From positions 1 through 20,650 of the forward strand of contig JAKSCF010000090.1 in assembly GCA_022360735.1 (NCBI GenBank): a stretch of 20,650 nucleotides of DNA, read 5' to 3'. This document shows, piece by piece, positions 3,676 to 18,662 of the stretch. The position numbers and the translations under genes were made by a program. Within the stretch, counting starts at the first letter, position 1. Each line of letters begins with the position of its first letter. The notes below the pieces were generated by a model. The model saw only the letters and a program-made list of their open reading frames with translations, had not been told where the DNA came from and searched no databases. Source of the stretch: Clostridia bacterium (lineage in GTDB: Bacteria > Bacillota_A > Clostridia > Peptostreptococcales > JAAYPU01).

Positions 3676-5277
3676 TTAGATTTTTTCCAGGGTTATTAAA
3701 ATTGCACTTTGAAAAGGGAGATTTTCAAAAAAGGTAATATTGCTGTGGTTTTTTATTTCATCAAAAAGAACCTTTGGAAAAGTAATTTTTTTAATCAGTT
3801 CTATATCTTCTGAGGATAAGTAAGAAGGGTTTCCAATTTTTTTAATATAGAACTCTGCATTTCCATTTTCTTGGTCTAAATAATATTTCTTTACTTTATA
3901 GTCATTTTGTATATTTTTCAATACAATTTTAAATGCCAAATAATTCTCAGAAGTATTCCGTGATGGATTATATAGCAGAATTTGAATACCGCAATCATTT
4001 TGCCCCACAGTAAACCCATCTTCATGATGTATCAATTTTTTTGAAACCTTTGATAACAGAAAAAAAGCGAAGTATGCCGGTTTTTTTATACCGGTATCGG
4101 TAAACAAACCATTCTCTCCAAGCAAATGAATATCTTTTATTTTTCCTTCTAAGCAATTTTTTATGACTTGAGGCGCTGTTTTACTCTTAATGTCATTTTC
4201 ACAAGGTTGATTAAAAAGCACTTTTTCAAAGTTACATTCTTTGATAACTTCTTGCAGCATCCATTGTTTTTGCTCAATGCTGACAGCACCGGATTCATCT
4301 AAATGGTTCAGTGTTGGCATGTCCCAATTTTGTAGGTTTTTATTTTCTTCCAGGTTAACGGTTTTAATTTTTTCTAGCTTAGAAATATAAGAATCAAGCT
4401 TTTCTTTAACCTTAGGGTTATTTAATGTGTACACCACTGACTTCTCTTTAAGAGCAGATAGTTTATTGTTCAATTTTTTATATTCATTGGGCGTACATGA
4501 ATACCATTTTTTAAAATACCGATTTAATGAACGGATATCTGAAAACCCGCAATCATAAGCGATTTCAGAGATTTTCTTATCAGTAGATATTAAAAACCTT
4601 TCAGCTGCTAATACACGAACATGGTTGAGGTACTCCAAAAAATTCATGCCCGTTATGGTTTTAATTAGGTTAGAAAAATAATATTTATTATAGTTCAGTG
4701 ATTCTGATATATTGGTTAAATCAATCTGTTCTGTAAAATGTGTGTAGACATAATCATCTATTTCATAAAATAATTCCATTTGCTTTTCTGTGATATCATC
4801 TTTTTTCTCAATCATATGGGTCGATTGGAGATTCCTTTCACAGTACGAAAGAAAAGGTATCAGCTCTTTTAATGGATTGTCCGACTCCGGTAAGCTATAG
4901 AACAGTTTTGCCAAATAATATCGAAGTGTTTTGAGGTGATCATTTTCAGATTCTCCGCTAATGGGATTAGCAAATAAAATCCACTGCATAATGTTTGGAA
5001 ATACATTTTGAAAGTATTCACAGTTGATCTGAAAAAACAAGACAATATTATCTTCTTCAATCTTTGAAAAGCTATGAACATCTTCTGCAGACACAATGAG
5101 TAAATCATTTTCTTTCATGACATATTTTTCACTGCTTAGAGAAGCATTGATGGCTCCTTTAAGGACTAAAATAAATTCAAAAGCATTGTCATGCCAATGA
5201 CTCTTATGAAAGCCTACACGCTCTATCTGCATGGTAAAAGGTTCTTGTATATTATAAATCATAAATTGTGGCAGCAT
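3676..5277 (-). CDS. AraC-family regulator with a truncated GH39-like C-terminal domain
   Basis: 533 residues. Residues ~15-90 form a cupin-like sensor (HKSHWHDNAFEFILVLKG; ENDLLIVSAEDVHSF). Residues ~172-270 hold the paired AraC helix-turn-helix, with the second HTH reading KKISEIAYDCGFSDIRSLNRYFKKWYSCTPNEYK. Residues ~305-345 (WDMPTLNHLDESGA..IEQKQWMLQEVIKECNFEKVLF) and ~388-533 (GLFTDTGIKKPAYFAFFLLSK, IQILLYNPS) resemble the first part of the TIM barrel and the end of the domain in AraC proteins with a GH39 beta-xylosidase-like tail. The middle of the barrel, including the usual NEP catalytic glutamate region, is absent and the frame is uninterrupted. AGAGGG lies 7 bases before the ATG. 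The gene starts 26 bp after the Fic-like gene. Sugar sensing is inferred from the family only. Confidence 0.82.
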   Translation of the reverse strand: MLPQFMIYNIQEPFTMQIERVGFHKSHWHDNAFEFILVLKGAINASLSSEKYVMKENDLLIVSAEDVHSFSKIEEDNIVLFFQINCEYFQNVFPNIMQWILFANPISGESENDHLKTLRYYLAKLFYSLPESDNPLKELIPFLSYCERNLQSTHMIEKKDDITEKQMELFYEIDDYVYTHFTEQIDLTNISESLNYNKYYFSNLIKTITGMNFLEYLNHVRVLAAERFLISTDKKISEIAYDCGFSDIRSLNRYFKKWYSCTPNEYKKLNNKLSALKEKSVVYTLNNPKVKEKLDSYISKLEKIKTVNLEENKNLQNWDMPTLNHLDESGAVSIEQKQWMLQEVIKECNFEKVLFNQPCENDIKSKTAPQVIKNCLEGKIKDIHLLGENGLFTDTGIKKPAYFAFFLLSKVSKKLIHHEDGFTVGQNDCGIQILLYNPSRNTSENYLAFKIVLKNIQNDYKVKKYYLDQENGNAEFYIKKIGNPSYLSSEDIELIKKITFPKVLFDEIKNHSNITFFENLPFQSAILITLEKI

Positions 5278-5303
5278 TTGTTATCCCTCTATTAACTTAG
5301 TCT

Positions 5304-6026
5304 TCAGTTATCGTTATCCGTTAATCTTAAAAATAATTCCAGTCTCAAGTATACTTTTTTGCAGATGGCCTCATAAAATTCTGAATGGTCTTGTTTTTTT
5401 AAATACCTTGCTATCAGTTTAAAATACGCATCGTCAGCCATTTCAAAATCGATTGGCGGCAGCCCTGATCTCAACAGCTCATAATTTAGTAGTGCTCTGG
5501 CTGTTTTTTCTGTATTATGACTAAAAGGGTAAATTTCTATTAATTTATGATGCATTAAAACGCCTCTTAAAACTGGGTTCATTTCTTTGGTCTGAGTACG
5601 ATACCATCTTAACAGGGTATCCATCAAATTTGGGATGTCTTTAAAGTGTGGCGGCACATATTGCATATGTTGAAGGACAGGGTTATTTTCTCTATAATGT
5701 TCCTCTTCTTCTAATACCAATAGATTATGTAAGGTCCAAATTTTCTCAATACTTAGTGATTCTCTTAAAGCAATGATTTTATTAACATAGTTGATGGCTT
5801 CTTCATGATTTCTGATGGTCAAATGGTCTTCTATGGTTTTGCTCAAAATATATTGATCCTTTAATATGGTTAGCGAATCATTTAATGTCAATTCACTTCC
5901 GCTTAATCGGTTAGAAGTATATATCCACTCAGACAGCCATACTTCTTTCATGTAATCTTCAATTGCTTTGGAAAAAGGTCTCCTATTATCCAATAGGAAC
6001 TTCTTCTTCTTGATCTCCCTTATCAC
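5304..6026 (-). CDS. Fic-fold protein with degenerate catalytic and inhibitory motifs
   Basis: 240 residues from a GTG start preceded by GGGTGG. Fic proteins transfer AMP or other groups to target proteins through HPFxxGNGRxxR. The fold is recognisable from the flap region (YRENNPV..QYVPPHFKDIPNLMDTLLRWY, ~111-142) and the core helix (LMHHKLIEIYPF, then RALLNYELLRSGLPPI). The motif itself reads Y166-P-F-S-H-N-T-E-K-T-A-R177: the catalytic His is Tyr, the acidic metal ligand is His and the Gly-Asn-Gly phosphate loop is gone. The upstream inhibitory-helix motif, normally SxxxEGN, reads SNRLSGSELT (38-47) and lacks the inhibitory Glu. The protein is probably not an AMPylase. It is first in a two-gene unit with the AraC regulator. 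A weak TATAAT-like -10 lies at 6049-6054. Confidence 0.78.
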   Translation of the reverse strand: MIREIKKKKFLLDNRRPFSKAIEDYMKEVWLSEWIYTSNRLSGSELTLNDSLTILKDQYILSKTIEDHLTIRNHEEAINYVNKIIALRESLSIEKIWTLHNLLVLEEEEHYRENNPVLQHMQYVPPHFKDIPNLMDTLLRWYRTQTKEMNPVLRGVLMHHKLIEIYPFSHNTEKTARALLNYELLRSGLPPIDFEMADDAYFKLIARYLKKQDHSEFYEAICKKVYLRLELFLRLTDNDN

Positions 6027-7301: not shown

Positions 7302-7739
7302 ATGAATATTCATACTTTAATTAAAGAAATGATCTTTTATAATTCGTATTACCAAAACAAAAACTTAAATAAGCTGATGAAAAAATACAAATTTGATGCC
7401 TTAAATCACAAAGCAGTGGTTTATTTAGATATCATATATTTAAACCAGCCTATTAAGCCCTCAGAAATGGCAAGTCTTACTTCTGTATCCAGAGCTGCTG
7501 TTACTAAAATTATAAAGAATCTTGAAAAATATCATTTAATTATCAAGAATCCTTTAGACAAAAGCGGACATAGCTATGAGCTCTTACTTTCAGATGTTGG
7601 GACTGCATTCTATAACGATATACTTGTCTATGATGACTTTATTGCAGATGTATTTTGTCAGATTCTTAATAATAACCAGGCCAATATTAAATTCCTCCAA
7701 GATAAATTAAACGAATTAAAAAAACAATGTAATACTTAG
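7302..7739 (+). CDS. MarR-family transcriptional regulator
   Basis: 145 residues. The winged helix-turn-helix spans ~40-105: IKPSEMASLTSVSRAAVTKIIKNLEKYHLI contains the recognition helix (61-80), and NPLDKSGHSYELLLSDVG is the wing with the D-x-S/R beta-hairpin typical of MarR. The N- and C-terminal helices (1-35, 105-145) form the dimer interface. AAGAGGAAGG precedes the ATG. The ligand is unknown. It is divergent from the lipoprotein gene, so that gene is a possible target along with its own promoter. Its TAG stop overlaps the stop of the convergent SLH gene by four bases (7736-7739), and no terminator separates them. Confidence 0.88.
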   Translation: MNIHTLIKEMIFYNSYYQNKNLNKLMKKYKFDALNHKAVVYLDIIYLNQPIKPSEMASLTSVSRAAVTKIIKNLEKYHLIIKNPLDKSGHSYELLLSDVGTAFYNDILVYDDFIADVFCQILNNNQANIKFLQDKLNELKKQCNT

Positions 7740-9463
7740 AAAATCATTAATGTAGTTCCCATAACACACCAATACGCTGTTTTGTTACCGGCTTCATCTT
7801 TTACGATTACATTAAACAAATAGTTTGTATTAGGGGACAATCCTGTTATGTTTTTTTCTTGTATATCTGCTTCATAGTCTCCAACAGGGGTTCCATTTCT
7901 TTCTATTGCACCTACGGTTCTAATATTATTGCTTTGAGAATAGTAGACCCTATAAACTAGTTTCTCTTGTACGGTCTCATTATCTGCGGCTTTTTCCCAT
8001 CTTATTCGTATGCTATTATGACTGGCATTATTGTCAGGGTACAATCCGTTGTCTGTTAAAGTTGGGCTGATTGTATCTTGTGCTTTATGGGTAGTGCCAC
8101 CGACACTTGTATATGCGCTTTTATTCCCTGCTTTATCTTTTACGATTATATTGAAGTAATAGGTTGTATCAGCAGTCAGCCCAGTAATAGTTTTGGCATT
8201 TATATCTGTTTCGTAAATTCCTACAGGTATCCCATTTTCTTCTATTGCACCTATTGTTCTGATATTATCATTTAGTGCATAATACACTTGGTACTGTAAA
8301 TCACTTTTGGCAGAGCGATTATCAGATGCTTTTGTCCAGCTAAGCTTAAGGGAAGTGATTGCTTCATCCGAAACAGTAAGTATACCTTCGATTTCAGGCG
8401 GTATATTATCTTCGGGTTTATCATCATTATCATCTTTATCCTTTTTCTTTTTGATATTGCTAAAAGTTGGCAGACTATCTTTGATAATAATATCATTGAA
8501 TTGAATGTTATCTCCATCTGCTCCTTTTATATTTGCATCACTTTTTACAACTAATATATCAATTTTGCTGTTTTTACCTTTTATGATAATATCTGATCCT
8601 TTTGATTTTGGGTCAATTTGTACTTTTTTTGTTTTGATATTATCCAAGGTAACATTAGATTTCTTACCCTCTGATGCAATCTTTAATTCTTTTTCTATTA
8701 TAGTACCTCTTACGGTAATATTTCCTGTTGCACCTGGGCTTATATATAAACTTTTTATGTTTTTTCCCTCTAATGTAATGTCATTACCTATAATGGTCAC
8801 GGTTGCATCTTCCGGTATATCTTTCACATCTTCTTGATTCTTTATTATATATCCTAAAACTCTATCGGTTATGGTAATCATCTCTGCTCTATTGATGGGT
8901 TCATTAGGCTTAAAGGATCCATCTTCATAACCATTGATATAACCAAGCTCTAAAAACGACCCTATGATTGCTTGCTGGTCTTGAGTCAGCCCTTGCATAT
9001 CGTTAAAATTATTGTTCAAATCTTCTTTCTCTATATCCATTAGACTGGATAATAAAGTCATAACATCGAGTCGAGTTGCACTTTCTTTACCTCTTACTTT
9101 GTTGTCTTCTATGTAATCATAGTATTTTGCCTTTGCAGCTTCATCTTTAAACCAATCTTCATTTTGAATATCTGAATAATTATCCTGGGATACTGAGGTT
9201 AGTCCAAAGTGTCGATTGATTAAGGTTATCAGCTCGCCTCTGGTTAAATAATTGTCCGGTTTGAATTCTCCTGTTGGATATCCTTTAACCATTTTCTGTT
9301 CATATTTTTTAATAATCCTATTTTTTGCCCAATGGTTTTGAATATCGCTAAAAGGATAATTATTTCCATTGTCTTCTGATCCTTGAGAAAATGCTATTGA
9401 ACTGGATAATAATAAAAAAGTTAATAAACCTACAATAAATTTTTTAATCCTTCTTTTCTTCAT
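7736..9463 (-). CDS. S-layer-homology surface protein with two FN3-like modules
   Basis: 575 residues. Residues 1-26 are a signal peptide (basic start, hydrophobic core, cleavage near AFS-QG). Three SLH repeats follow: ~36-85 (FSDIQNHWAKNRI..GYPTGEFKPDNYLTRGE), a divergent ~96-146 (YSDIQNEDWFKDEA) and ~153-205 (GYINGYEDGSFKPNEPINRAEM). They would bind secondary cell-wall polymer. Residues ~215-330 are a beta-rich segment with repeating polar/Val-Ile strands (EGKNIKSLYISPGATGNITV), like the beta-solenoid part of other SLH proteins. A Lys/Asp linker (337-352) leads to two FN3-like modules (~355-458, ~467-572) that are clear duplicates. AAAGGAGG lies 9 bases before the ATG. It is a cell-surface structural or adhesive protein; the binding target is unknown. 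Confidence 0.88.
   Translation of the reverse strand: MKKRRIKKFIVGLLTFLLLSSSIAFSQGSEDNGNNYPFSDIQNHWAKNRIIKKYEQKMVKGYPTGEFKPDNYLTRGELITLINRHFGLTSVSQDNYSDIQNEDWFKDEAAKAKYYDYIEDNKVRGKESATRLDVMTLLSSLMDIEKEDLNNNFNDMQGLTQDQQAIIGSFLELGYINGYEDGSFKPNEPINRAEMITITDRVLGYIIKNQEDVKDIPEDATVTIIGNDITLEGKNIKSLYISPGATGNITVRGTIIEKELKIASEGKKSNVTLDNIKTKKVQIDPKSKGSDIIIKGKNSKIDILVVKSDANIKGADGDNIQFNDIIIKDSLPTFSNIKKKKDKDDNDDKPEDNIPPEIEGILTVSDEAITSLKLSWTKASDNRSAKSDLQYQVYYALNDNIRTIGAIEENGIPVGIYETDINAKTITGLTADTTYYFNIIVKDKAGNKSAYTSVGGTTHKAQDTISPTLTDNGLYPDNNASHNSIRIRWEKAADNETVQEKLVYRVYYSQSNNIRTVGAIERNGTPVGDYEADIQEKNITGLSPNTNYLFNVIVKDEAGNKTAYWCVMGTTLMIF
7790..8300 (-). repeat. Duplicated FN3-module coding repeat
   Basis: Two units about 330 bases apart encode nearly the same module: residues ~399-456 and ~512-570 share NNIRTxGAIExNGxPVGxYExDI and the later YxFNxIVKDxAGNKxAY. 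The DNA is visibly similar at 7790-7960 and 8120-8300. This is an internal tandem duplication inside the SLH protein gene. Confidence 0.75.
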
Positions 9464-10286: not shown

Positions 10287-11186
10287 ATGTCTATCGTTAT
10301 TATAATACTAATCGTCATCGCTATCGTTTTGATAGTAACCAATATTCGAATTGTCCCTCAAGCACAAGCATATGTTATGGAAAGATTAGGTGCTTATCAA
10401 ACTACATGGGCGGTTGGACTTCATGTAAAGGTTCCCCTCATTGATAGAATTGCTAAAAAGGTTTCTTTAAAGGAACGTGTGGTAGACTTTCCGCCACAGC
10501 CGGTTATAACAAAAGATAATGTTACCATGCAAATCGATACCGTTGTTTATTATCAAATCACAGACCCTAAGCTATACGCTTATGGTGTTGATAACCCTAT
10601 TTCAGCTATAGAAAATCTAACCGCTACTACGCTAAGAAATATTATCGGTGAGTTAGAGCTGGATGAAACGCTAACCAGCAGAGATATCATCAATACAAAG
10701 ATGAGAAGTATCTTAGATGAGGCCACAGACCCTTGGGGGATTAAAATCAATCGTGTTGAAGTTAAAAACATTATTCCTCCTGCCGATATTCAAGAAGCTA
10801 TGGAAAAACAAATGCGTGCTGAGCGTGAACGTAGAGAAGCCATTTTAAGAGCTGAAGGTGAGAAAAAATCTGCTGTTTTGGTTGCTGAGGGTCAAAAAGA
10901 ATCTGAGATTCTTAAAGCAGAAGCTGCCAAGGAAGCTGCCATTAAGGAAGCCGAAGGTAGAGCAGAGGCCATTCTGAAGGTTCAAAACGCCACTGCAGAA
11001 GGTCTAAAAATGCTTAAAGAAGCTAACCCTGACCAAGCGGTTATTACCCTTAAGAGCTTAGAAGCATTTACGAAAGCGGCAGATGGTAAAGCGACTAAGA
11101 TCATTATTCCTTCTGAAATTCAGAATATTGCCGGATTGGCTACTTCTATTACGGAGTTAATCAAAGACGAAAAAGAAAAGATGTAA
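10287..11186 (+). CDS. SPFH/stomatin-like membrane scaffold protein
   Basis: 299 residues. An N-terminal membrane helix (SIVIIILIVIAIVLIVTNI, ~2-20) is followed by the SPFH/band-7 domain (~22-180: VPQAQAYVMERLGAYQTTWAVGLHVKVPLIDRI, VVDFPPQPVITKDNVTMQIDTVVYYQITDP, RNIIGELELDETLTSRDIIN, GIKINRVEVKNI). A long Ala/Glu/Lys coiled coil (~175-235) and a stomatin-like tail follow. It closely resembles QmcA/stomatin-like proteins, which oligomerise on the inner face of the membrane. AAAGGAG (10269-10275) lies ahead of the ATG. It is the second gene of the pair with NfeD; NfeD's OB domain is expected to interact with it, from family knowledge. Confidence 0.92.
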   Translation: MSIVIIILIVIAIVLIVTNIRIVPQAQAYVMERLGAYQTTWAVGLHVKVPLIDRIAKKVSLKERVVDFPPQPVITKDNVTMQIDTVVYYQITDPKLYAYGVDNPISAIENLTATTLRNIIGELELDETLTSRDIINTKMRSILDEATDPWGIKINRVEVKNIIPPADIQEAMEKQMRAERERREAILRAEGEKKSAVLVAEGQKESEILKAEAAKEAAIKEAEGRAEAILKVQNATAEGLKMLKEANPDQAVITLKSLEAFTKAADGKATKIIIPSEIQNIAGLATSITELIKDEKEKM

Positions 11187-11205
11187 TTTATAATGTTAAA
11201 AAAAA

Positions 11206-11227
11206 GGTTGGGCACGGCGACCCAACC
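11206..11227 (-). terminator. Minus-strand terminator ending the EAL-HDOD/FlhB-like operon
   Basis: The stem GGTTGGG (11206-11212) pairs with CCCAACC (11221-11227) around an 8-base loop. On the minus strand it runs directly into eight Us (A run 11198-11205). It is GC-rich in an AT-rich context and about 90 bases past the FlhB-like stop. Confidence 0.75.
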
Positions 11228-11251
11228 CTACAGATTGGATTGATGAAAACA

Positions 11252-11320
11252 TAGGGGCGTATTGTATACGCCCTTTTTTAAGTTCAAAACACATTAGAAG
11301 ACGTATGCAATACGCCCCTA
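11252..11320. repeat. Inverted GC-rich palindromic repeat pair
   Basis: Nineteen bases at 11252-11270 (TAGGGGCGTATTGTATACG) recur inverted at 11302-11320 with one mismatch, 31 bases apart. The left arm can fold on itself as a terminator or pair with the distal arm. The right copy contributes the TAG stop of the FlhB-like gene. Its look is that of the short TAGGGGCG-type palindromes scattered in Bacillota genomes, which is an inference from memory. Confidence 0.7.
11255..11279 (+). terminator. Intrinsic terminator after the SPFH gene
   Basis: The stem GGGCGTA (11255-11261) pairs with TACGCCC (11267-11273) around a 5-base loop, then TTTTTT (11274-11279), about 70 bases past the SPFH stop. It is part of the palindromic repeat cluster. 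Confidence 0.8.
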
Positions 11321-11623
11321 CGGGTTATGGTTGGTGGTTTTTTTGAGTATGTAGGCGAATATTTCTGCTACTACTTCGTATAATTCTACCGGAATTTCTT
11401 CACCCAGCTCCAGCTGTGATAAAAGAGCAGCTGCTGTCTCATCCTCATAAATCGGTACACCGGATTCCTGAGCGACTTCAATAATGCGTTGGGCAATATG
11501 GCCTGCACCGCTTGCTACTACTACCGGTGATTGGTCTTTATCTTTATCGTAGGCAAGGGCCACAGCATTTTTCATATCTTTTCTTTTATAGTTTATATCC
11601 CGATTTATATTATGCTTTAACAT
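11318..11623 (-). CDS. FlhB C-terminal-domain-like protein (YlqH-type)
   Basis: 101 residues matching only the cytoplasmic C-terminal domain of FlhB/YscU, the type III export switch: KNAVALAYDKDKDQSPVVVASGAGHIAQRIIEVAQESGVPIYEDETAAALLSQLELGEEIPVELYEVVAEIFAYIL. It has no membrane segments, and the autocleavage motif NPTH, which should stand just before AVAL, reads KDMKN. The domain therefore cannot self-cleave there. ATG at 11623 overlaps the 3' end of the FliK-like gene by 14 bases, so translation is probably coupled; a GTG at 11629 is an alternative. The TAG stop comes from a palindromic repeat. The same gene order (FliK-like, FlhB-C-like) is known as ylqG-ylqH in Bacillus subtilis. The role is unknown. 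Confidence 0.85.
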   Translation of the reverse strand: MLKHNINRDINYKRKDMKNAVALAYDKDKDQSPVVVASGAGHIAQRIIEVAQESGVPIYEDETAAALLSQLELGEEIPVELYEVVAEIFAYILKKTTNHNP

Positions 11624-13136
11624 TAACACCCATCCTCTTTTCAAAACTATCAGGAAATATTTCATTCAGCCGGCGATTTTTTTTTGCTAAAGTCATATCA
11701 AATGTATTGAGGCGTAATCCGGATCGTTGAACGATTTGAGATATTTGATGACCTGAGTCGGAAAACTGATGGATAATAGATGGAGGACAATACAATTGAA
11801 TATCGATGGATTTTCCTGAAAGCAATATATCCAACTCAAAACTCCCTACCTGTTCTACATTTAAAGTTAAAAACATATGGGTGCTGCTTTTATCATGGTT
11901 ACCGTCTTCTCCATCTTTCTGATCATTAGGATCAATCCAAATTTCTCCCATCGCTTGAACATCTTCAAACTTTATAGGTAAAAGAAAATGGAGTAAAGGA
12001 TGTTTATCGGCTTGAGAGGCCGTCATTCCCTTTAAGAAAGTTTCCGTCAGCGTATTCACTCCTTCTTTATCCGATAACTGCTGTGACTTGTCCATTAATT
12101 TTGATAGTATTTTTTCTAAAGTATTTTTCGACTCAGAGGATTCTATCATAGTATCTTTGTCAAATTGAGATGTCAGCCATTCCATTAATTTTTCGTTGTC
12201 TGCACCATCTTCAATGGTTCCTGTTTTTATAAACATGGCAATAATCTTATCCATAACGGTTTTGGGTTGTTGGGACAGATCATTCTGACCTTGATTTTCT
12301 TGTAAGGAAAACAACTGTTCAAACTTATTGTCCCACTCTTTAAAATGGGCTGCAAATTTCGAGTCGGGCAGCTGCTCCAGTAAATGCTTCAAGGATTTGT
12401 GTAAGGAAAATCCTTGATCTTCTAAAGCTTGTATTTTCCCATAAGATTCTGCTATTTTATTCATAACAGCCATGATTTTAGGTTCTTTAGAATATTGTCC
12501 AGCCATTTCTTTTAACAGAGGCAATAAATTTTTCAGCTCATTTCCAGACTGATTTTCTTGTAAAAGCTGCTTTAATTCATTGATTTGTAAGCTAGGTGAA
12601 TCACTTTTTTTAGAAGACAATAATTGAATCAATTGATCCATGTTTTCTGCTATTCTATTTTCATGCTTTGTTTTTGAAGTCAATGCTACATACGCTCGCA
12701 ACACATCTGCTACCGCATTTTCAATAGTTTTGCTGCCTGAATGCTGCTGTATTATGTTCCTCAAAAAATTAAAAAATTCCCCTTTGAATTCTATGGTTTT
12801 GTCATGCTGATCCAGTAATTCTTTAGGAATATTATTGGTTTTCAAAAAAAGGTTCCCTTGATCATTAATCTGATAACCTTCTACTATTTGTTTTAAAGTT
12901 TGAATCAAAACATCTTTATTGGGTACCTGCTGGTGTTTAACAGGTGCTTGAGTGCTATCTTTTCCATAGTTACTTTCTAATGCATTATTTCTTGTTTCAT
13001 TACTTTTTATTTGCGCAGTATTTTTTAAGGGCACATTCTGCGTTCCCTTTAATATGTCCATTAAATCTTTCATGGCTTCATTTTTAAGCTGATTATAACC
13101 CACTGATACTGGAATTCTGGGAATTGAATTTGTCAT
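11610..13136 (-). CDS. FliK-like hook-length-control family protein (YlqG-type)
   Basis: 508 residues. The first ~400 are polar, low-conservation, Gln/Asn/Lys-rich helices, as in the disordered ruler part of FliK. Residues ~405-495 resemble the Flg_hook C-terminal domain: FEDVQAMGEIWIDPN, then MFLTLNVEQVGSFELDILLSGKSIDIQLYCPPSIIHQFSDSGHQISQIVQRSGLRLNTFDM. FliK works with FlhB to switch export substrates, and here its small partner follows directly, overlapping by 14 bases. No hook, rod or basal-body gene is in the window, so a non-flagellar role as for YlqG is likely. AAGGGGTGA precedes the ATG and overlaps the gap of 13 bases from the J-domain gene. The family call rests on the C-terminus. 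Confidence 0.72.
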   Translation of the reverse strand: MTNSIPRIPVSVGYNQLKNEAMKDLMDILKGTQNVPLKNTAQIKSNETRNNALESNYGKDSTQAPVKHQQVPNKDVLIQTLKQIVEGYQINDQGNLFLKTNNIPKELLDQHDKTIEFKGEFFNFLRNIIQQHSGSKTIENAVADVLRAYVALTSKTKHENRIAENMDQLIQLLSSKKSDSPSLQINELKQLLQENQSGNELKNLLPLLKEMAGQYSKEPKIMAVMNKIAESYGKIQALEDQGFSLHKSLKHLLEQLPDSKFAAHFKEWDNKFEQLFSLQENQGQNDLSQQPKTVMDKIIAMFIKTGTIEDGADNEKLMEWLTSQFDKDTMIESSESKNTLEKILSKLMDKSQQLSDKEGVNTLTETFLKGMTASQADKHPLLHFLLPIKFEDVQAMGEIWIDPNDQKDGEDGNHDKSSTHMFLTLNVEQVGSFELDILLSGKSIDIQLYCPPSIIHQFSDSGHQISQIVQRSGLRLNTFDMTLAKKNRRLNEIFPDSFEKRMGVNVKA

Positions 13137-13149
13137 ACCGTCACCCCTT

Positions 13150-14352
13150 TTACATTTCCAGTCTTACATCCTCATAACCTTCATTTTGATCATGACTTTC
13201 TACCCCGGCAAAATAACAGGCTGTTTTTAAAGTTTCTACCTCATCTCTTCCGGAATGCTCCTGTATCCCTGTACGTATGACCACTTTATAGTTGTAATAA
13301 GTTATAAAATTGTCTTTCAATATTTTACACACATTTTCTGCAGCAATTTTGGCACTTTCATAATTGGTCTCTGTTAATATAATAGCAAAGGAATCGTTGG
13401 TAATATTGGCTACTATGTCAGTATTTCTTATATATTGTTGGATGGTATATGCTGCATATTTTATGATATCTTTTTTTACAAAAACCATTTCATCTTTTGG
13501 TGGAAATCTTAAGGATAATACAGCAATTGAAAAAGTATTTCGATACCTAAGAAATCTGTTTTTCTCTTTTTCCAGTTCTTCTAACAGTCCTTTTTGATTG
13601 AGTAACCCGGTCAACTCATTTTTCTTGATTTGCAATTTTGATAGCTGCTCTATTTCGGAAGATTGAGTATTCATATGATATAGGTATTTAAATTTATTGA
13701 TCAATAATTTTAAATCATCATACTCCAATAGTATTTTCCAATTGCCATTTTCATTAATAGTCGTTTTGGTAAACTGATATTTGGATATTTTACCGTTTTG
13801 TACATTTTTCTCAGACATACGTATTTCAAATTCAATGGCCTTTTTACAAGCTACATGCTTAAGAGAAATATCAGAATGTACTTTAAAGACTTTGGTTTCA
13901 AAATGTCCTATGGCATAAAGTTTTGATACGGCTTCTTGCCATTCAACAAAGTCTTCTTTGGTCACTTTTTTTTGATTATAGTTGGATAACATTTCATAAG
14001 CTCTTACAAAATTTTTATTGGATAAAGCTTGTATATACGTATTTAAAATTTTCTGAGCAGCATCGTCAACAGGCTGCCCAAAGCCATTTTTCCATGTATT
14101 GGATGACAAAGGCGTAGATTTATTATTTTTTAGCCATTGTTTGTGATAGTCTTTTCTTTTTTCTTTATCCTTTAAGACTTCATAAGCAGCATTAATTTGT
14201 TTGATTTTTGATTCGGCATGAGCATTACAATTAATATCCGGATGATATTTTTTGCATAATCTGCGATATGCGCCTTCTATCACTTCGTGTTCTGCATCAT
14301 GATGAACTTGTAAAATATGATAATAATCTTCCCAAATTTTCATTTCTGTCAT
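13150..14352 (-). CDS. J-domain protein fused to NTF2-like and degenerate GGDEF domains
   Basis: 400 residues with an unusual architecture. A J-domain (~8-70; EDYYHILQVHHDAEHEVIEGAYRRLCKKYHPD, HPD at 37-39) should stimulate an Hsp70. Residues ~95-210 look like an NTF2/SnoaL-type cone (YIQALSNKNFVRAYEMLS at the start, TTINENGNWKILLEY at the end). Residues ~243-380 fit the GGDEF fold (ELTGLLNQKGLLEEL, FSIAVLSLRF, then NDSFAIILTET). The cyclase signature is T318-N-D-S-F322 and the metal-binding D/DxDxF strand is absent, so no c-di-GMP synthesis is expected. R309-N-T-D312 keeps the inhibitory-site RxxD five residues before the signature, the standard distance, so c-di-GMP binding is plausible. 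AAAGGAATCTA precedes the ATG. It is second in a four-gene operon, 21 bases after the EAL-HDOD gene. Confidence 0.8.
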   Translation of the reverse strand: MTEMKIWEDYYHILQVHHDAEHEVIEGAYRRLCKKYHPDINCNAHAESKIKQINAAYEVLKDKEKRKDYHKQWLKNNKSTPLSSNTWKNGFGQPVDDAAQKILNTYIQALSNKNFVRAYEMLSNYNQKKVTKEDFVEWQEAVSKLYAIGHFETKVFKVHSDISLKHVACKKAIEFEIRMSEKNVQNGKISKYQFTKTTINENGNWKILLEYDDLKLLINKFKYLYHMNTQSSEIEQLSKLQIKKNELTGLLNQKGLLEELEKEKNRFLRYRNTFSIAVLSLRFPPKDEMVFVKKDIIKYAAYTIQQYIRNTDIVANITNDSFAIILTETNYESAKIAAENVCKILKDNFITYYNYKVVIRTGIQEHSGRDEVETLKTACYFAGVESHDQNEGYEDVRLEM

Positions 14353-14373: not shown

Positions 14374-15600
14374 TTAATTATTACTATCCAAAATACCATT
14401 AAGCCAATCCAGTGCATGATAATACATTTGTGATACCTCATCAATTTCAAGTTGCAAGAGGCTACATAGATGAGATAATTGGTCTATGTCTCCACGCTCA
14501 TACTTTAAAATCAATTGATAAGCTATACTCATTTTATCTTTTGGGTTGTTTCCCATCAGTGTATTTTTTATATCTTCAGATAAGTGAATGGCTTGGAGTA
14601 TAGCGGTCATTTCCATATCCATCAAGGCATCCATCAGGGACAGCATACCTACCGTTATGTATTCTGACTTCCTCTTGTTTTCTCCCAGCCGCTCTGCCAT
14701 CTGTTCCATAAATTTTAGTCGAATCATGCTGTAATTAATGATTTCATTTGGCTTTTTATTGCCGGTTACTTTTTTTGAGACAGCTAAATATACCCATTTT
14801 TTTATACCTTCGATTCCCATAAATACAATGGCTTGCTTTATGGAATGAATTGTATTTCGTTTATAGAATGCCGCCGAATTTACCAGCTTTAATACTTCAT
14901 ATGAAAATGATACATCGTGTTCAATGATTTCTGCAATTTCATCAAAGTCAGGGTCTTCTTCATACATCGCATTGATTAATCTTAAATAGCTTAATTTATA
15001 TGGCAAAATAGTGCGAGATGGTAAAACTTCAGGTTTTGCAAAAAAATAACCTTGAAAATATGTACACCCTAAATCAATTGCCAAATTAAAATCCTCTATG
15101 GTTTCTATCTTTTCAGCAAGAAATTTAATTCCCATATCGCCATATTTCTTTATGATTTCTTTATTTTCTTTTATTGGTGTATTTAAAAAATCTAATTTAA
15201 TAATATCTGCTAATAGTATTAATGGCTCATAATCATCTCTAAGAACAAAATCATCCAATACGATTGGATAACCTGCTTTTTTCAAATTTTTACACGCTGC
15301 AACCACTTCTTCGCTAGGCTCAATGGTCTCTAAGAGTTCTATGACCATATGCTCATTGGAAAACAAGGAGGCAATTTCTTCAGTAATTAGGCGTTCCGTA
15401 AAGTTAACAAATGCTTTTTTATTGCCTGTAAGCGTCTCCATACCTACTGATAAAAAACTATCTTTCATGACGTTTAAAGTAGCCTTATCGCCATCTATCT
15501 CCGTATAGTCATCTATGCCTTTTTCTCTATACAAAAGTTCATACCCAAATACGGTTTTATCTTTATTAAAAATTGGCTGCCTTGCGATGCAACTATTCAT
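14374..15600 (-). CDS. EAL-HDOD signalling protein (YuxH family)
   Basis: 408 residues. Residues 1-195 are an EAL-family domain in the YuxH form: ELLYR (21-25) in place of EALxR, FVNFT (64-68), VIELLE (86-91), VLDDFVLRDD (114-123) in place of DDFGTGYSS, IKLD (134-137), AEKIET (162-167) and FQGYFF (182-187). Single catalytic-type residues remain, but loop 6 is rebuilt, so hydrolysis of c-di-GMP is doubtful; many family members act as binders. Residues ~200-400 are an HDOD domain (FSYEVLKLVNSAAFYKRNTIHSIKQAIVFMGIEGIKKW), typical of signalling scaffolds without HD-hydrolase activity. TGAGG precedes the ATG. It is the first gene of the operon with the J-domain, FliK-like and FlhB-like genes, and divergent from the EAL-CBS-GGDEF gene. 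Confidence 0.9.
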   Translation of the reverse strand: MNSCIARQPIFNKDKTVFGYELLYREKGIDDYTEIDGDKATLNVMKDSFLSVGMETLTGNKKAFVNFTERLITEEIASLFSNEHMVIELLETIEPSEEVVAACKNLKKAGYPIVLDDFVLRDDYEPLILLADIIKLDFLNTPIKENKEIIKKYGDMGIKFLAEKIETIEDFNLAIDLGCTYFQGYFFAKPEVLPSRTILPYKLSYLRLINAMYEEDPDFDEIAEIIEHDVSFSYEVLKLVNSAAFYKRNTIHSIKQAIVFMGIEGIKKWVYLAVSKKVTGNKKPNEIINYSMIRLKFMEQMAERLGENKRKSEYITVGMLSLMDALMDMEMTAILQAIHLSEDIKNTLMGNNPKDKMSIAYQLILKYERGDIDQLSHLCSLLQLEIDEVSQMYYHALDWLNGILDSNN

Positions 15601-15800: not shown

Positions 15801-15830
15801 GACAAATATTTCTATATAGGAGAATTGATT

Positions 15831-17615
15831 ATGAATAGTGATTTTGAGTTAAATGAAATTATTGAAAAAGAACTCATACACACTCTTTTTCAGCCTATTG
15901 TCAATTTAAAAAGCGGTGAAATTCTAGGCTACGAAGCTTTAAGCAGGGGCCCTGAAGAAAGCTCGCTTTATTCTCCTATTCATCTTTTAGAGGCTGCAAA
16001 AAATCAGGACAAGCTTTGGGAGTTAGAGACAATTTTTAGAAAAAGCGCTATTAGTAAAGCCAGCACTCTCAAGCTTAAAGAATTATTGTTTCTTAATGTT
16101 GAACCTAATATTATTCATGATGAGGAATTTCAAGAAGGTTTTACTAAAAATTATTTGATTAAGCATCATCTCAATCCGGAACAAATTGTATTTGAGATCA
16201 CTGAGCGGTCAGCTATGTCCAATTACAGTGATTTTGAAAGCACTATAAAACATTATAAAAATCAAGGCTATAAAATAGCTATTGATGACACCGGTGCAGG
16301 CTACTCCAATTTTTCTGCTTTATCTAAAATTAAACCCTACTATATCAAAATTGATATGGATATTGTTCGTGATATTGATAAAGAGCCATTTAATCAAGCC
16401 ATTATCAGTTCCTTTGTTATTTTATCTAATCTTACAAACACTAAGCTAATCGCAGAAGGCATTGAAACAAAGGGAGAATTGGAAACATTAATTGATCTGG
16501 GTGTACACGCTGCTCAAGGTTATTTTATTTCTACACCCTCTAAACAACTTAAAAACATTCCCGCTGAAATCAAAAACTTAATCATGGTTAAAAATAAACC
16601 TAATGCCTCATATTTTTATCATACAGAAAAATATATCGGTGAAATTTCTAATGTCATAGCACCTTTTGATATCAACCATAGCTGTTTAGAAGTTAAGGAA
16701 TTTTTAGAAAAAAATAATGTTGAAGGTACCTGCATCTTAAATCAAGATGAGGTGATAGGCTTGATTATGAAAAATCACTTGGATGCCACTTTATCAGGTC
16801 AGTATGGTTATTCATTATATGCGCGAAAGCCCGTAAGCAAAGTAATGGATCATAATTGTCTGACTGTAGATTATTTTACGCCTATCAATATCGTTGCTGA
16901 ATTAGCTATGTCCAGACATCCTTCAAAGATTTATGATAACATCATTATTACTAAGGGACTGAAATACTGGGGTATCGTTTCAGTTATAGAGCTATTAAGG
17001 CAGTTTTTAGAAATGGAACGCAACACGGCTTTAGAGTTAAACCCTCTCACAGGTTTGCCCGGAAATACACTCATTAACAAAGCATTAAGCTATGCTATTG
17101 ATACAAACAGTCCCAATGTTGTTTTATATATTGATTTAGACAATTTCAAAGCTTACAATGACGTATACGGCTTTGAAAAAGGAGATCATGTTATCCAAAT
17201 GACGAAAGATACAATTATGACATGTATAAAGGGAGAGCACAGGTTTACTCATTTTATTGGACACATAGGCGGCGATGATTTTATCGCAATTATTGAATGT
17301 AACTATGAAGAAGGTAAAAAAATCTGTCAGCAAATCATTGATTTTTACAATAAAAAGATTAAAAATTACTTTAATACCGAAGATCAAAATAGAGGCTATA
17401 TTTTAGCCAGGGATAGAAACAAAGCTTTGAAACAATTCAATCTAACCACTATTTCAATTGCCGGTATTTTTGGACCTCTTAATTATTTTAGTTCTCCGGA
17501 AAAATTAGCACAATATATGTCAACGATAAAGAAAAAAGTAAAAGAAATAGATAAAAGCAGCTACATTTTAGAAGCTGCTCCAAAAAATAATATTTATTCT
17601 TTAAACTTATCATAG
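15831..17615 (+). CDS. EAL-CBS-GGDEF c-di-GMP turnover protein
   Basis: 594 residues from ATG 15831, with AGGAG 8 bases upstream; a TTG at 15825 is too close to it. The EAL domain (~1-245) is complete: E35-A-L-S-R, N89, FEITER (121-126), IDDTGAGYSN (151-160), K173-I-D175, AEGIET (208-213), AQGYF. It should hydrolyse c-di-GMP. Residues ~265-395 are a CBS pair, a likely nucleotide sensor (VSKVMDHNCLTVDYFTPINIVAELAM). The GGDEF domain (~404-590) has NPLTGLPGN, Y-I-D435-L-D-N-F-K, YNDVYGFEKGD and GGDDF (480-484). The inhibitory RxxD is R471-F-T-H474, so product inhibition is probably lost. It is soluble, with no membrane segment. It converges on the calcium-loop gene with 3 bases between stops. 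Which activity dominates cannot be told from sequence. Confidence 0.93.
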   Translation: MNSDFELNEIIEKELIHTLFQPIVNLKSGEILGYEALSRGPEESSLYSPIHLLEAAKNQDKLWELETIFRKSAISKASTLKLKELLFLNVEPNIIHDEEFQEGFTKNYLIKHHLNPEQIVFEITERSAMSNYSDFESTIKHYKNQGYKIAIDDTGAGYSNFSALSKIKPYYIKIDMDIVRDIDKEPFNQAIISSFVILSNLTNTKLIAEGIETKGELETLIDLGVHAAQGYFISTPSKQLKNIPAEIKNLIMVKNKPNASYFYHTEKYIGEISNVIAPFDINHSCLEVKEFLEKNNVEGTCILNQDEVIGLIMKNHLDATLSGQYGYSLYARKPVSKVMDHNCLTVDYFTPINIVAELAMSRHPSKIYDNIIITKGLKYWGIVSVIELLRQFLEMERNTALELNPLTGLPGNTLINKALSYAIDTNSPNVVLYIDLDNFKAYNDVYGFEKGDHVIQMTKDTIMTCIKGEHRFTHFIGHIGGDDFIAIIECNYEEGKKICQQIIDFYNKKIKNYFNTEDQNRGYILARDRNKALKQFNLTTISIAGIFGPLNYFSSPEKLAQYMSTIKKKVKEIDKSSYILEAAPKNNIYSLNLS

Positions 17616-17618
17616 GCC

Positions 17619-18662
17619 TTATATGGCAAGATCTATTTGATGGACTGTTCCTGCTTGGCCATTTTCATTCAAAAAAAAGCTGGATGATTTCATCTGACCT
17701 AATGTATTATTTTTTCCGTCTTTCATGGCAAATGGAGTTTCAATATTTCCTAAGTATATAGCACCTATTCCTTTTTTTCCTATTGCTAATAGCCGATCCT
17801 CATCATTTTCATCTTTAATCCATATCTTGAGTTGATCAAAAATAGGGTCGTTTTCATCTATCCAGCCATTCTGATCCGCATCGTACACTCTTAACTCATT
17901 AAATCCGTCTCCAGTATTGGGGCCAAATAATTCGCCGCCATTATTAATAATCCCGTCGTTATTTAAGTCAAGTGCTAAAAGACCACTTCCTGAATTAACG
18001 AATGAAATTTGATCTTCTTTTCCATCGGTATCTAAATCAAATATATATTTCTTTTGAGTTAAAGATAGTCCGGCTCCATCAAGATTAATAACAATAGGGT
18101 CTATCAGTTCATCTCCTGCTTTTATTTGAACACCTGAATATGAAGCAAAATGTCTGCTCATATTCAGTTGAAGTGAAATATCTATTGATTGCCCATCTTG
18201 TGTTTTAATGCATCCACGTGCTCTAAATGACATTTTTTCCTGTTCATTATAATATCTTGAATAATTGTATTCCAGCCCCCATCCTTGTTGTTGGCTTAAT
18301 TTATTATCTTTAGTTATTTCTGCATTTTGGTAATGATTAAAAGTAATTTTTTTGATATATTGAAATTTAATTTTTTTACCGGTTAGCTTCTCCATAAATT
18401 TTTCTAATAGCAATATTTTTTGTTTATCTTGTTCACTCATCTCAAATTTTATTGCCTCTTTTTTTTCTGCTTTATTCAAATCCATTTCTCGTTGATGGGC
18501 AATTCGAGCTTCTTCAGAAATTTCAATAGTATCTATTTCTTTTATAACATTATTATTGGAACCTGGTTCTATCGTCCAAAATTTTAATGACTCATTTTCT
18601 TCTGTTCTTTGTGTCATTAAGTGTTTGCTATCCATATGTATTTCACTGCTTAATATCTTCAC
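17619..18662 (-). CDS. Protein with EF-hand-type calcium-binding loops
   Basis: 347 residues from a GTG start at 18662 with a perfect AAGGAGGTGA ribosome site. No signal peptide or membrane segment is seen, so it is cytoplasmic or leaves by a non-Sec route. Residues 1-120 are polar and helical (EARIAHQREMDLNKAEKKEA, MSEQDKQKILLLEKFMEKL). Residues ~185-285 carry three Asp-rich loops: FDLDTDGKEDQI (208-219), LDLNNDGIINNGGELFG (231-247) and YDADQNGWIDENDPIFDQL (260-278). These match the DxDxDG EF-hand/dockerin-type calcium pattern, and the phrase order is that of a widespread uncharacterised bacterial family. Function unknown. It lies between the EAL-CBS-GGDEF and glycogen phosphorylase genes and is probably a single-gene unit. 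Confidence 0.75.
   Translation of the reverse strand: MKILSSEIHMDSKHLMTQRTEENESLKFWTIEPGSNNNVIKEIDTIEISEEARIAHQREMDLNKAEKKEAIKFEMSEQDKQKILLLEKFMEKLTGKKIKFQYIKKITFNHYQNAEITKDNKLSQQQGWGLEYNYSRYYNEQEKMSFRARGCIKTQDGQSIDISLQLNMSRHFASYSGVQIKAGDELIDPIVINLDGAGLSLTQKKYIFDLDTDGKEDQISFVNSGSGLLALDLNNDGIINNGGELFGPNTGDGFNELRVYDADQNGWIDENDPIFDQLKIWIKDENDEDRLLAIGKKGIGAIYLGNIETPFAMKDGKNNTLGQMKSSSFFLNENGQAGTVHQIDLAI

Follow-up and report, generated by a model that had tools for sequence, protein, structure and literature searches.

The minus-strand reading frame at 13150..14352 of the window (the whole stretch of 20,650 nucleotides analysed, from a Clostridia bacterium) starts with ATG and translates into a 400-residue protein that joins a J-domain, an NTF2-like domain and a degenerate GGDEF domain. 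Catalysis has been erased in the GGDEF domain while the residues that grip c-di-GMP have been kept, which suggests that protein folding is directed by this messenger, probably while flagella are being assembled. Our working reading of the family, with a probability of about 0.6, combines c-di-GMP reception, chaperone action and a link to flagella. The original prediction was of a c-di-GMP-responsive co-chaperone; the flagellar link, which comes from gene neighbours and co-occurrence with FliD, was absent from it.

An HPD J-domain had been predicted near residues 8-70, and Pfam located DnaJ at residues 9-69 (14146..14328, minus strand; 71.8 bits, cut-off 27.8), with the HPD motif at 37-39. The AF2 model, built from 42 sequences (mean pLDDT 87.3), placed helices of this domain at residues 10-14, 22-35, 44-61 and 63-78; with a pTM of 0.44, the model does not fix the mutual arrangement of the domains. 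The HPD motif was kept in 98 of 99 relatives, P0177 being the lone exception. The zinc and C-terminal domains of DnaJ (PF00684, PF01556) were found neither in the protein (Pfam, E up to 1) nor in any of the 42 sequences of alignment A2 (E 0.001). By its HPD J-domain the protein is assigned from sequence to class C, not to class A or B. The Pfam scan of the protein revealed neither a PilZ nor an Hsp70 domain, and no signal peptide was seen by eye at its N-terminus.

The predicted NTF2-like middle was recovered by profile search as MecA_N at residues 99-207 (13732..14058, minus strand; 28.8 bits, cut-off 22); the NTF2 fold was supported alongside this match, and Trp138 of this domain was present in 99 of 99 relatives. 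MecA_N is also part of the extracellular transpeptidase in PBP2a/PBP5; those domains are extracellular, while here it lies in a protein without an N-terminal signal peptide by eye. A long helix (residues 215-243; 13624..13710, minus strand; AF2 secondary structure) precedes the GGDEF domain and appears to resemble the stalks of WspR and DgcB. The degenerate GGDEF domain covers residues 244-383 (13204..13623, minus strand), and its fold was backed by Pfam (GGDEF at 296-361, 38.6 bits, cut-off 23.8), by the AF2 model and by structure matches, in agreement with the proposal of a C-terminal GGDEF fold whose signature is reduced to TNDSF (residues 318-322; 13387..13401, minus strand). The RNTD motif at 309-312 (13417..13428, minus strand) corresponds to the primary I-site RxxD, and the gap between it and TNDSF is the five residues originally described. 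The prediction had also stated that the strand bearing the metal-binding aspartate was missing. This was half correct: the strand exists (residues 275-282 in the AF2 model) and the aspartate itself is lost (Ser280).

Protein searches returned 349 proteins, and among the best 120 of the 349 there were 28 full-length proteins, including the query; a profile search (E 1e-30) listed 93 proteins, from which P0186 (a wasp protein) and P0190-P0195 and P0030 (plain J-domain proteins) were left out. The comparison set comprised 109 sequences, including 20 genome loci, and 99 relatives remained after removal of 10 sequences with at least 90% identity. In alignment A2 (Pfam, E 0.001), DnaJ was matched by 42 of 42 members, GGDEF by 35 and MecA_N by 9. 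Together with a domain order that is constant across the family on many contigs, these matches ruled out a fusion artefact or a frameshift. At E 1e-40 the family was present in 4 of 391 genomes sampled from the class, in 17 of 394 genomes of one order and in 14 of 18 genomes of one family. A scan of genomic contigs yielded mostly plain J-domains (80 loci were kept, and L001 alone showed a match that ran past the N-terminal region across most of the query), and a further search around genome G194 identified G194 as its only family-positive genome.

Relatives were named at source as DnaJ domain-containing protein, diguanylate cyclase or CbpA/GGDEF domain-containing protein, the last by JGI, so the combination is not new to annotation pipelines. 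The original prediction knew of no described protein with this domain order, and the open-access literature searched, outside of which most subscription papers lie, likewise contained none; the accessible parts of PMC10055731 and PMC12943098 were unrelated to the protein. The protein apparently belongs to an undescribed class C J-domain family that occurs in Clostridia and other Bacillota.

The predicted pattern in orthologues, RxxD conserved and GGDEF not, was borne out. Arg309 and Asp312 were kept in all 98 relatives that reach that point (P0174 ends earlier), and Arg269 (13546..13548, minus strand) was kept in 98 of 99. The GG[DE]EF signature was present in 0 of 99 relatives, with the pentapeptide at 318-322 varying freely, and the metal-ligand column held Asp in 7 of 99. 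Arg309, Asp312 and Arg269 were the top three of 138 columns (243-380) by fraction of the commonest residue; in a background-weighted score computed on 47 sequences they ranked 5th, 1st and 6th, respectively. Arg309 and Asp312 had been singled out before the analysis, while Arg269 was spotted in the alignment and identified afterwards. A p-value for 98 of 98 would be meaningless because the family members are related; it is the depth of divergence that carries the argument, as the GGDEF parts of the 99 relatives share a median of only 25% identity in pairwise comparison.

In the alignment with the WspR construct 3i5c, Arg309 and Asp312 fall on R242 and D245, and Arg269 falls on an arginine. A constant offset of 71 to the structure matches 3i5b and 3bre numbers this arginine as WspR 198, so that Arg269 is the equivalent of the second I-site arginine of WspR. 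Identity of Arg269 with PleD R313 was considered and ruled out, as the ungapped run and the match ranges put Arg266 on PleD 313 and Arg269 on WspR R198; the PleD residue numbers were obtained by counting. Column 340, which by offset we take to be that of PleD R390, held a basic residue (Lys or Arg) in 89 of 98 relatives, a point in favour of the receptor reading; Asn340 of the present protein is not basic and counts against it. In WspR an intercalated c-di-GMP dimer sits at R242xxD245 of one GGDEF domain, with R198 from a symmetry mate completing the I-site; the R242A and R198A variants purify essentially free of nucleotide (accessible part of PMC2270323).

We then compared the family with the other GGDEF domains of the same genomes. 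The 20 family-positive genomes contained 111 other GGDEF matches, of which 108 domains were compared (two rows were left out as short or at a contig end, and one for an inner stop). RxxD was present in 51 of 93 control domains with an intact signature and in 4 of 15 degenerate ones. I-site retention in the J-domain/GGDEF family was thus well above that of the other GGDEF domains, and family-wide retention together with these controls ruled out a chance RxxD. The equivalent of Arg269, at its exact spacing from the metal aspartate, was counted in 67 intact domains, leaving out the 26 of 93 without a clear metal-Asp pattern. It was found in 27 of these 67, namely in 27 of 44 with RxxD vs. 0 of 23 without it (Fisher p 1.7e-7). 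The looser spacing (Arg 9-13 residues before the metal aspartate) told against a strict linkage: it was satisfied by 35 control domains, 4 of them lacking RxxD. Read from the alignment column, the second arginine was present in 32 of 93 controls, a figure less sure than that of RxxD because of indels; the exact-spacing count is sounder. As the Arg269 equivalent travels with RxxD at exact spacing, both belong to one I-site, and as RxxD is often absent from intact controls (42 of 93), neither RxxD nor Arg269 is needed for the GGDEF fold.

Other GGDEF matches (E 1e-10) were present in 19 of the 20 genomes, where a c-di-GMP signal should consequently be available. The exception is genome G403. Its family member (L117, 9045-10343) is also the only copy in which Arg269 is replaced by Leu, a single case in which the I-site is possibly decaying where c-di-GMP is gone; that the gene is kept there all the same weighs against the receptor reading. 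The GGDEF fold, RxxD in 98 of 98 relatives, Arg269 in 98 of 99 and loss of the signature in 99 of 99 strongly support the predicted receptor function through the I-site, and on this sequence evidence the protein very probably acts as a c-di-GMP receptor.

Three other readings of the C-terminal domain were weighed. An active diguanylate cyclase (or one half of such an enzyme), its output tuned by the J-domain, would agree with the name diguanylate cyclase given by the sources to P0023, P0149, P0155 and P0183; the lost signature (TNDSF in the present protein) and the lost metal ligand (Ser280) rule out an active enzyme, and the reading is scarcely credible. Binding of another cyclic dinucleotide or of a guanine nucleotide instead of c-di-GMP is very unlikely. 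PleD structures with ppGpp/pppGpp (9g85, 9g86) were among the structure matches, and sequence and model alone do not tell such ligands apart, but the retained residues are the ones with which WspR grips c-di-GMP (accessible part of PMC2270323), and nearly all of the genomes (19 of 20) have other GGDEF matches.

The degenerate GGDEF domain might otherwise serve solely for dimerisation or docking, RxxD and Arg269 being kept for structure or for protein contacts. Inactive GGDEF domains can act as interaction modules, and Tyr270, Glu328, Arg266 and Glu263 were also kept in 94 to 97 of 99 relatives, so a conserved surface exists beyond the I-site. However, ordinary GGDEF domains encoded by these genomes do not need the I-site for their fold, the Arg269 equivalent appears at exact spacing only together with RxxD, and Arg309, Asp312 and Arg269 rank above all other columns of the domain by commonest residue. 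We therefore consider the docking-only explanation rather improbable, and retain c-di-GMP reception as the probable function of the domain.

The neighbourhood of the gene in the window points to both c-di-GMP and flagella. Upstream by 21 nt lies a gene for an HDOD-EAL protein (14374..15600, minus strand; Pfam HDOD 60.1 bits, EAL 51 bits), the probable first gene of the operon, which we infer from spacing. Downstream by 13 nt a gene for a FliK-like hook-length control protein was found (11610..13136, minus strand; Pfam Flg_hook, E 4e-4, 20.6 bits, a weak match below the cut-off of 29.8); Flg_hook was matched by four of the eight members of alignment A3, the FliK-like protein included (E 0.01; best 1.6e-6). 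It is overlapped by a reading frame (11318..11665, minus strand) for a protein like the C-terminal part of FlhB, of the TIGR00789 type (PF01312 80.1 bits; TIGR00789 101.9 bits, below the cut-off of 117.35), whose true start may lie further inside the frame. A terminator-like hairpin, a consensus match only, follows this four-gene run (11204..11229, minus strand); the region held 5 such hairpins vs. 2.7 expected, and promoter matches were about as frequent as chance predicts (26 vs. 23.2 expected).

Divergent from the HDOD-EAL gene, an EAL-CBS-GGDEF protein (signature GGDDF) is encoded at 15825-17615 on the plus strand, so that three genes of c-di-GMP type (EAL-CBS-GGDEF, HDOD-EAL and J-domain/GGDEF) stand side by side. 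The window also encodes a 347-residue protein (17619-18662, minus strand) with no match in Pfam (E 1) or NCBIfam (E 0.1) and with acidic stretches that look calcium-loop-like by eye, and an S-layer homology protein with fibronectin type III domains (Pfam; 7736-9463, minus strand), probably a surface protein.

Twenty loci of relatives were fetched, some on short contigs, and their neighbours were clustered and in part scanned with Pfam. Core flagellar genes adjoined the J-domain/GGDEF gene in the window and in only 3 of these 20 loci. In L119 and L120 the neighbours are FliK, FlhB-like and FliD (the L120 labels being backed by Pfam), and in L105 flagellin, FlaG, FliD and FliS stand ahead of the gene. 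On the tree, the loci with flagellar neighbours fall into three clades: one with the window, one with G460 and G534, and one formed by G194 alone on a deep branch, the deepest nodes having low support. In the other 17 loci, clustering and the Pfam scan of part of the neighbours recognised no core flagellar gene directly beside the J-domain/GGDEF gene. A hint that the fliK-like neighbour is kept near the closest relatives comes from equal longest contigs for P0003 and P0123 (15303) and for P0004 and P0125 (32031).

Six loci of one genome family (L107, L108, L110, L111, L112 and L114) shared by cluster an adjoining metallophosphoesterase-type gene (about 196 residues), confirmed by Pfam in L107, L108 and L111. 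In L111 and L114 it is followed by a convergent gene for FapA, named flagellar assembly protein A in Pfam; lying two genes from the J-domain/GGDEF gene, it is a weaker sign of a flagellar link, and a fragment of the FapA cluster was found further off in L113. L110 carries an HDOD-domain relative of the HDOD-EAL gene of the window, again two genes away. Three further proteins were noted at these loci. Between the FlhB-like and J-domain/GGDEF genes of L119 a 348-residue protein without a Pfam match (E 0.01) is encoded (10382-11425, minus strand), and a similar reading frame was seen by eye in L120 (about 7800-9090, plus strand); proteins of this type may be flagellar wall hydrolases. L105 encodes between FliS and the J-domain/GGDEF gene a lysine-rich 119-residue protein (5058-5414, plus strand; no Pfam match at E 0.01), by position only a candidate flagellar export chaperone.

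FliD was detected in 18 of the 20 family-positive genomes. In one order (394 genomes, apparently the same draw as above) the family was present in 17 genomes, FliD in 67 and both in 16 (hypergeometric 1.4e-12, kinship ignored); as 14 of the 17 positives belong to one family, they do not amount to 17 independent events. Inside that family of 18 genomes, FliD was found in 13 of 14 with the gene vs. 1 of 4 without it (Fisher 0.019). The order also contained 51 FliD-positive genomes without the J-domain/GGDEF gene, which is thus not needed for flagella as such. A dependence of flagella on DnaK has been described in C. difficile, which without DnaK is non-motile and has no flagella (accessible part of PMC5727486). 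In P. aeruginosa DnaK binds FliC (accessible part of PMC11816700). The C. difficile authors attribute the defect to a reduced fliC transcript, not to export or translation, as far as the accessible text of PMC5727486 goes, and an export client is consequently not favoured by it.

The alternative to the flagellar link is that the protein responds to c-di-GMP but serves general clients (factors of the envelope, stress, sporulation or biofilms), its flagellar neighbourhood being incidental. For the 14 positive genomes that share one family, the neighbours examined included no recognisable core flagellar gene directly beside it; in L118 it stands beside pterin and pseudouridine-synthase genes; and CsdK1/CsdK2 of Myxococcus concern CdbS accumulation and heat stress and are dispensable for motility (accessible part of PMC10313047). 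By contrast, core flagellar neighbours recur in three separate clades of the tree, and both the overall occurrence of FliD (18 of 20) and its distribution inside the family of 18 genomes argue against incidental proximity. General clients are in our estimate unlikely, and we keep to the reading that links the receptor and chaperone to flagella.

In this flagellar reading, nucleotide binding would govern the recruitment of DnaK. An intercalated c-di-GMP dimer would bind Arg309 and Asp312 of one subunit and Arg269 of another GGDEF domain, as in WspR, and this bridging would alter the pairing of GGDEF domains and stalks. The altered pairing could expose or hide the J-domain or the NTF2-like domain, which at a guess is the one that holds the client, and DnaK would be recruited to, or withheld from, the client depending on c-di-GMP. 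Flagellar proteins are the likely clients, for example export substrates or proteins of the filament, the cap or hook-length control, and flagellum building would be braked or licensed post-translationally as cells settle. Tentatively, the protein could then be a c-di-GMP-gated Hsp40: by binding to a product-inhibition site put to new use, the messenger would turn the service of Hsp70 to flagellar clients on or off, and the choice to settle or swim would be enforced in protein folding, beyond transcription or motor braking.

Direct action of a second messenger on the Hsp70 machine was rare in the literature searched, the one fused precedent being the PilZ-DnaK of Myxococcus (accessible part of PMC10313047). 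A family in which catalysis was selected away and the ligand site kept is a ready test bed. If the reading is true, it offers one way to tie DnaK, needed for C. difficile flagella (accessible part of PMC5727486), to the sessile switch, and annotators could drop the diguanylate cyclase label for some relatives.

Among known systems, PopA likewise combines a degenerate A-site with an RxxD I-site retained as receptor site, and PelD is a GGDEF-domain effector of comparable receptor type (both in the accessible part of PMC12564702). PopA is a response regulator in protein degradation, whereas here the partner is a J-domain, with an NTF2-like domain in between. WspR and PleD are catalytic and use the I-site for product inhibition; here the catalytic residues are gone and the I-site is the proposed input to a chaperone. 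CsdK1/CsdK2 of Myxococcus xanthus similarly fuse a domain of c-di-GMP-binding type to the Hsp70 machine (accessible part of PMC10313047), but there PilZ sits on DnaK itself, while here a GGDEF I-site, a different receptor fold, sits on the co-chaperone. AtcJ of Shewanella is, like the present protein, a class C J-domain protein without the DnaJ zinc or C-terminal domains, and serves a dedicated process; it differs in its C-terminal extension of 21 residues and in lacking a domain that senses nucleotides (accessible part of PMC6715715). Degenerate GGDEF receptors and the PilZ-DnaK fusion were thus already known, and it is the combination of J-domain and GGDEF that is apparently new.
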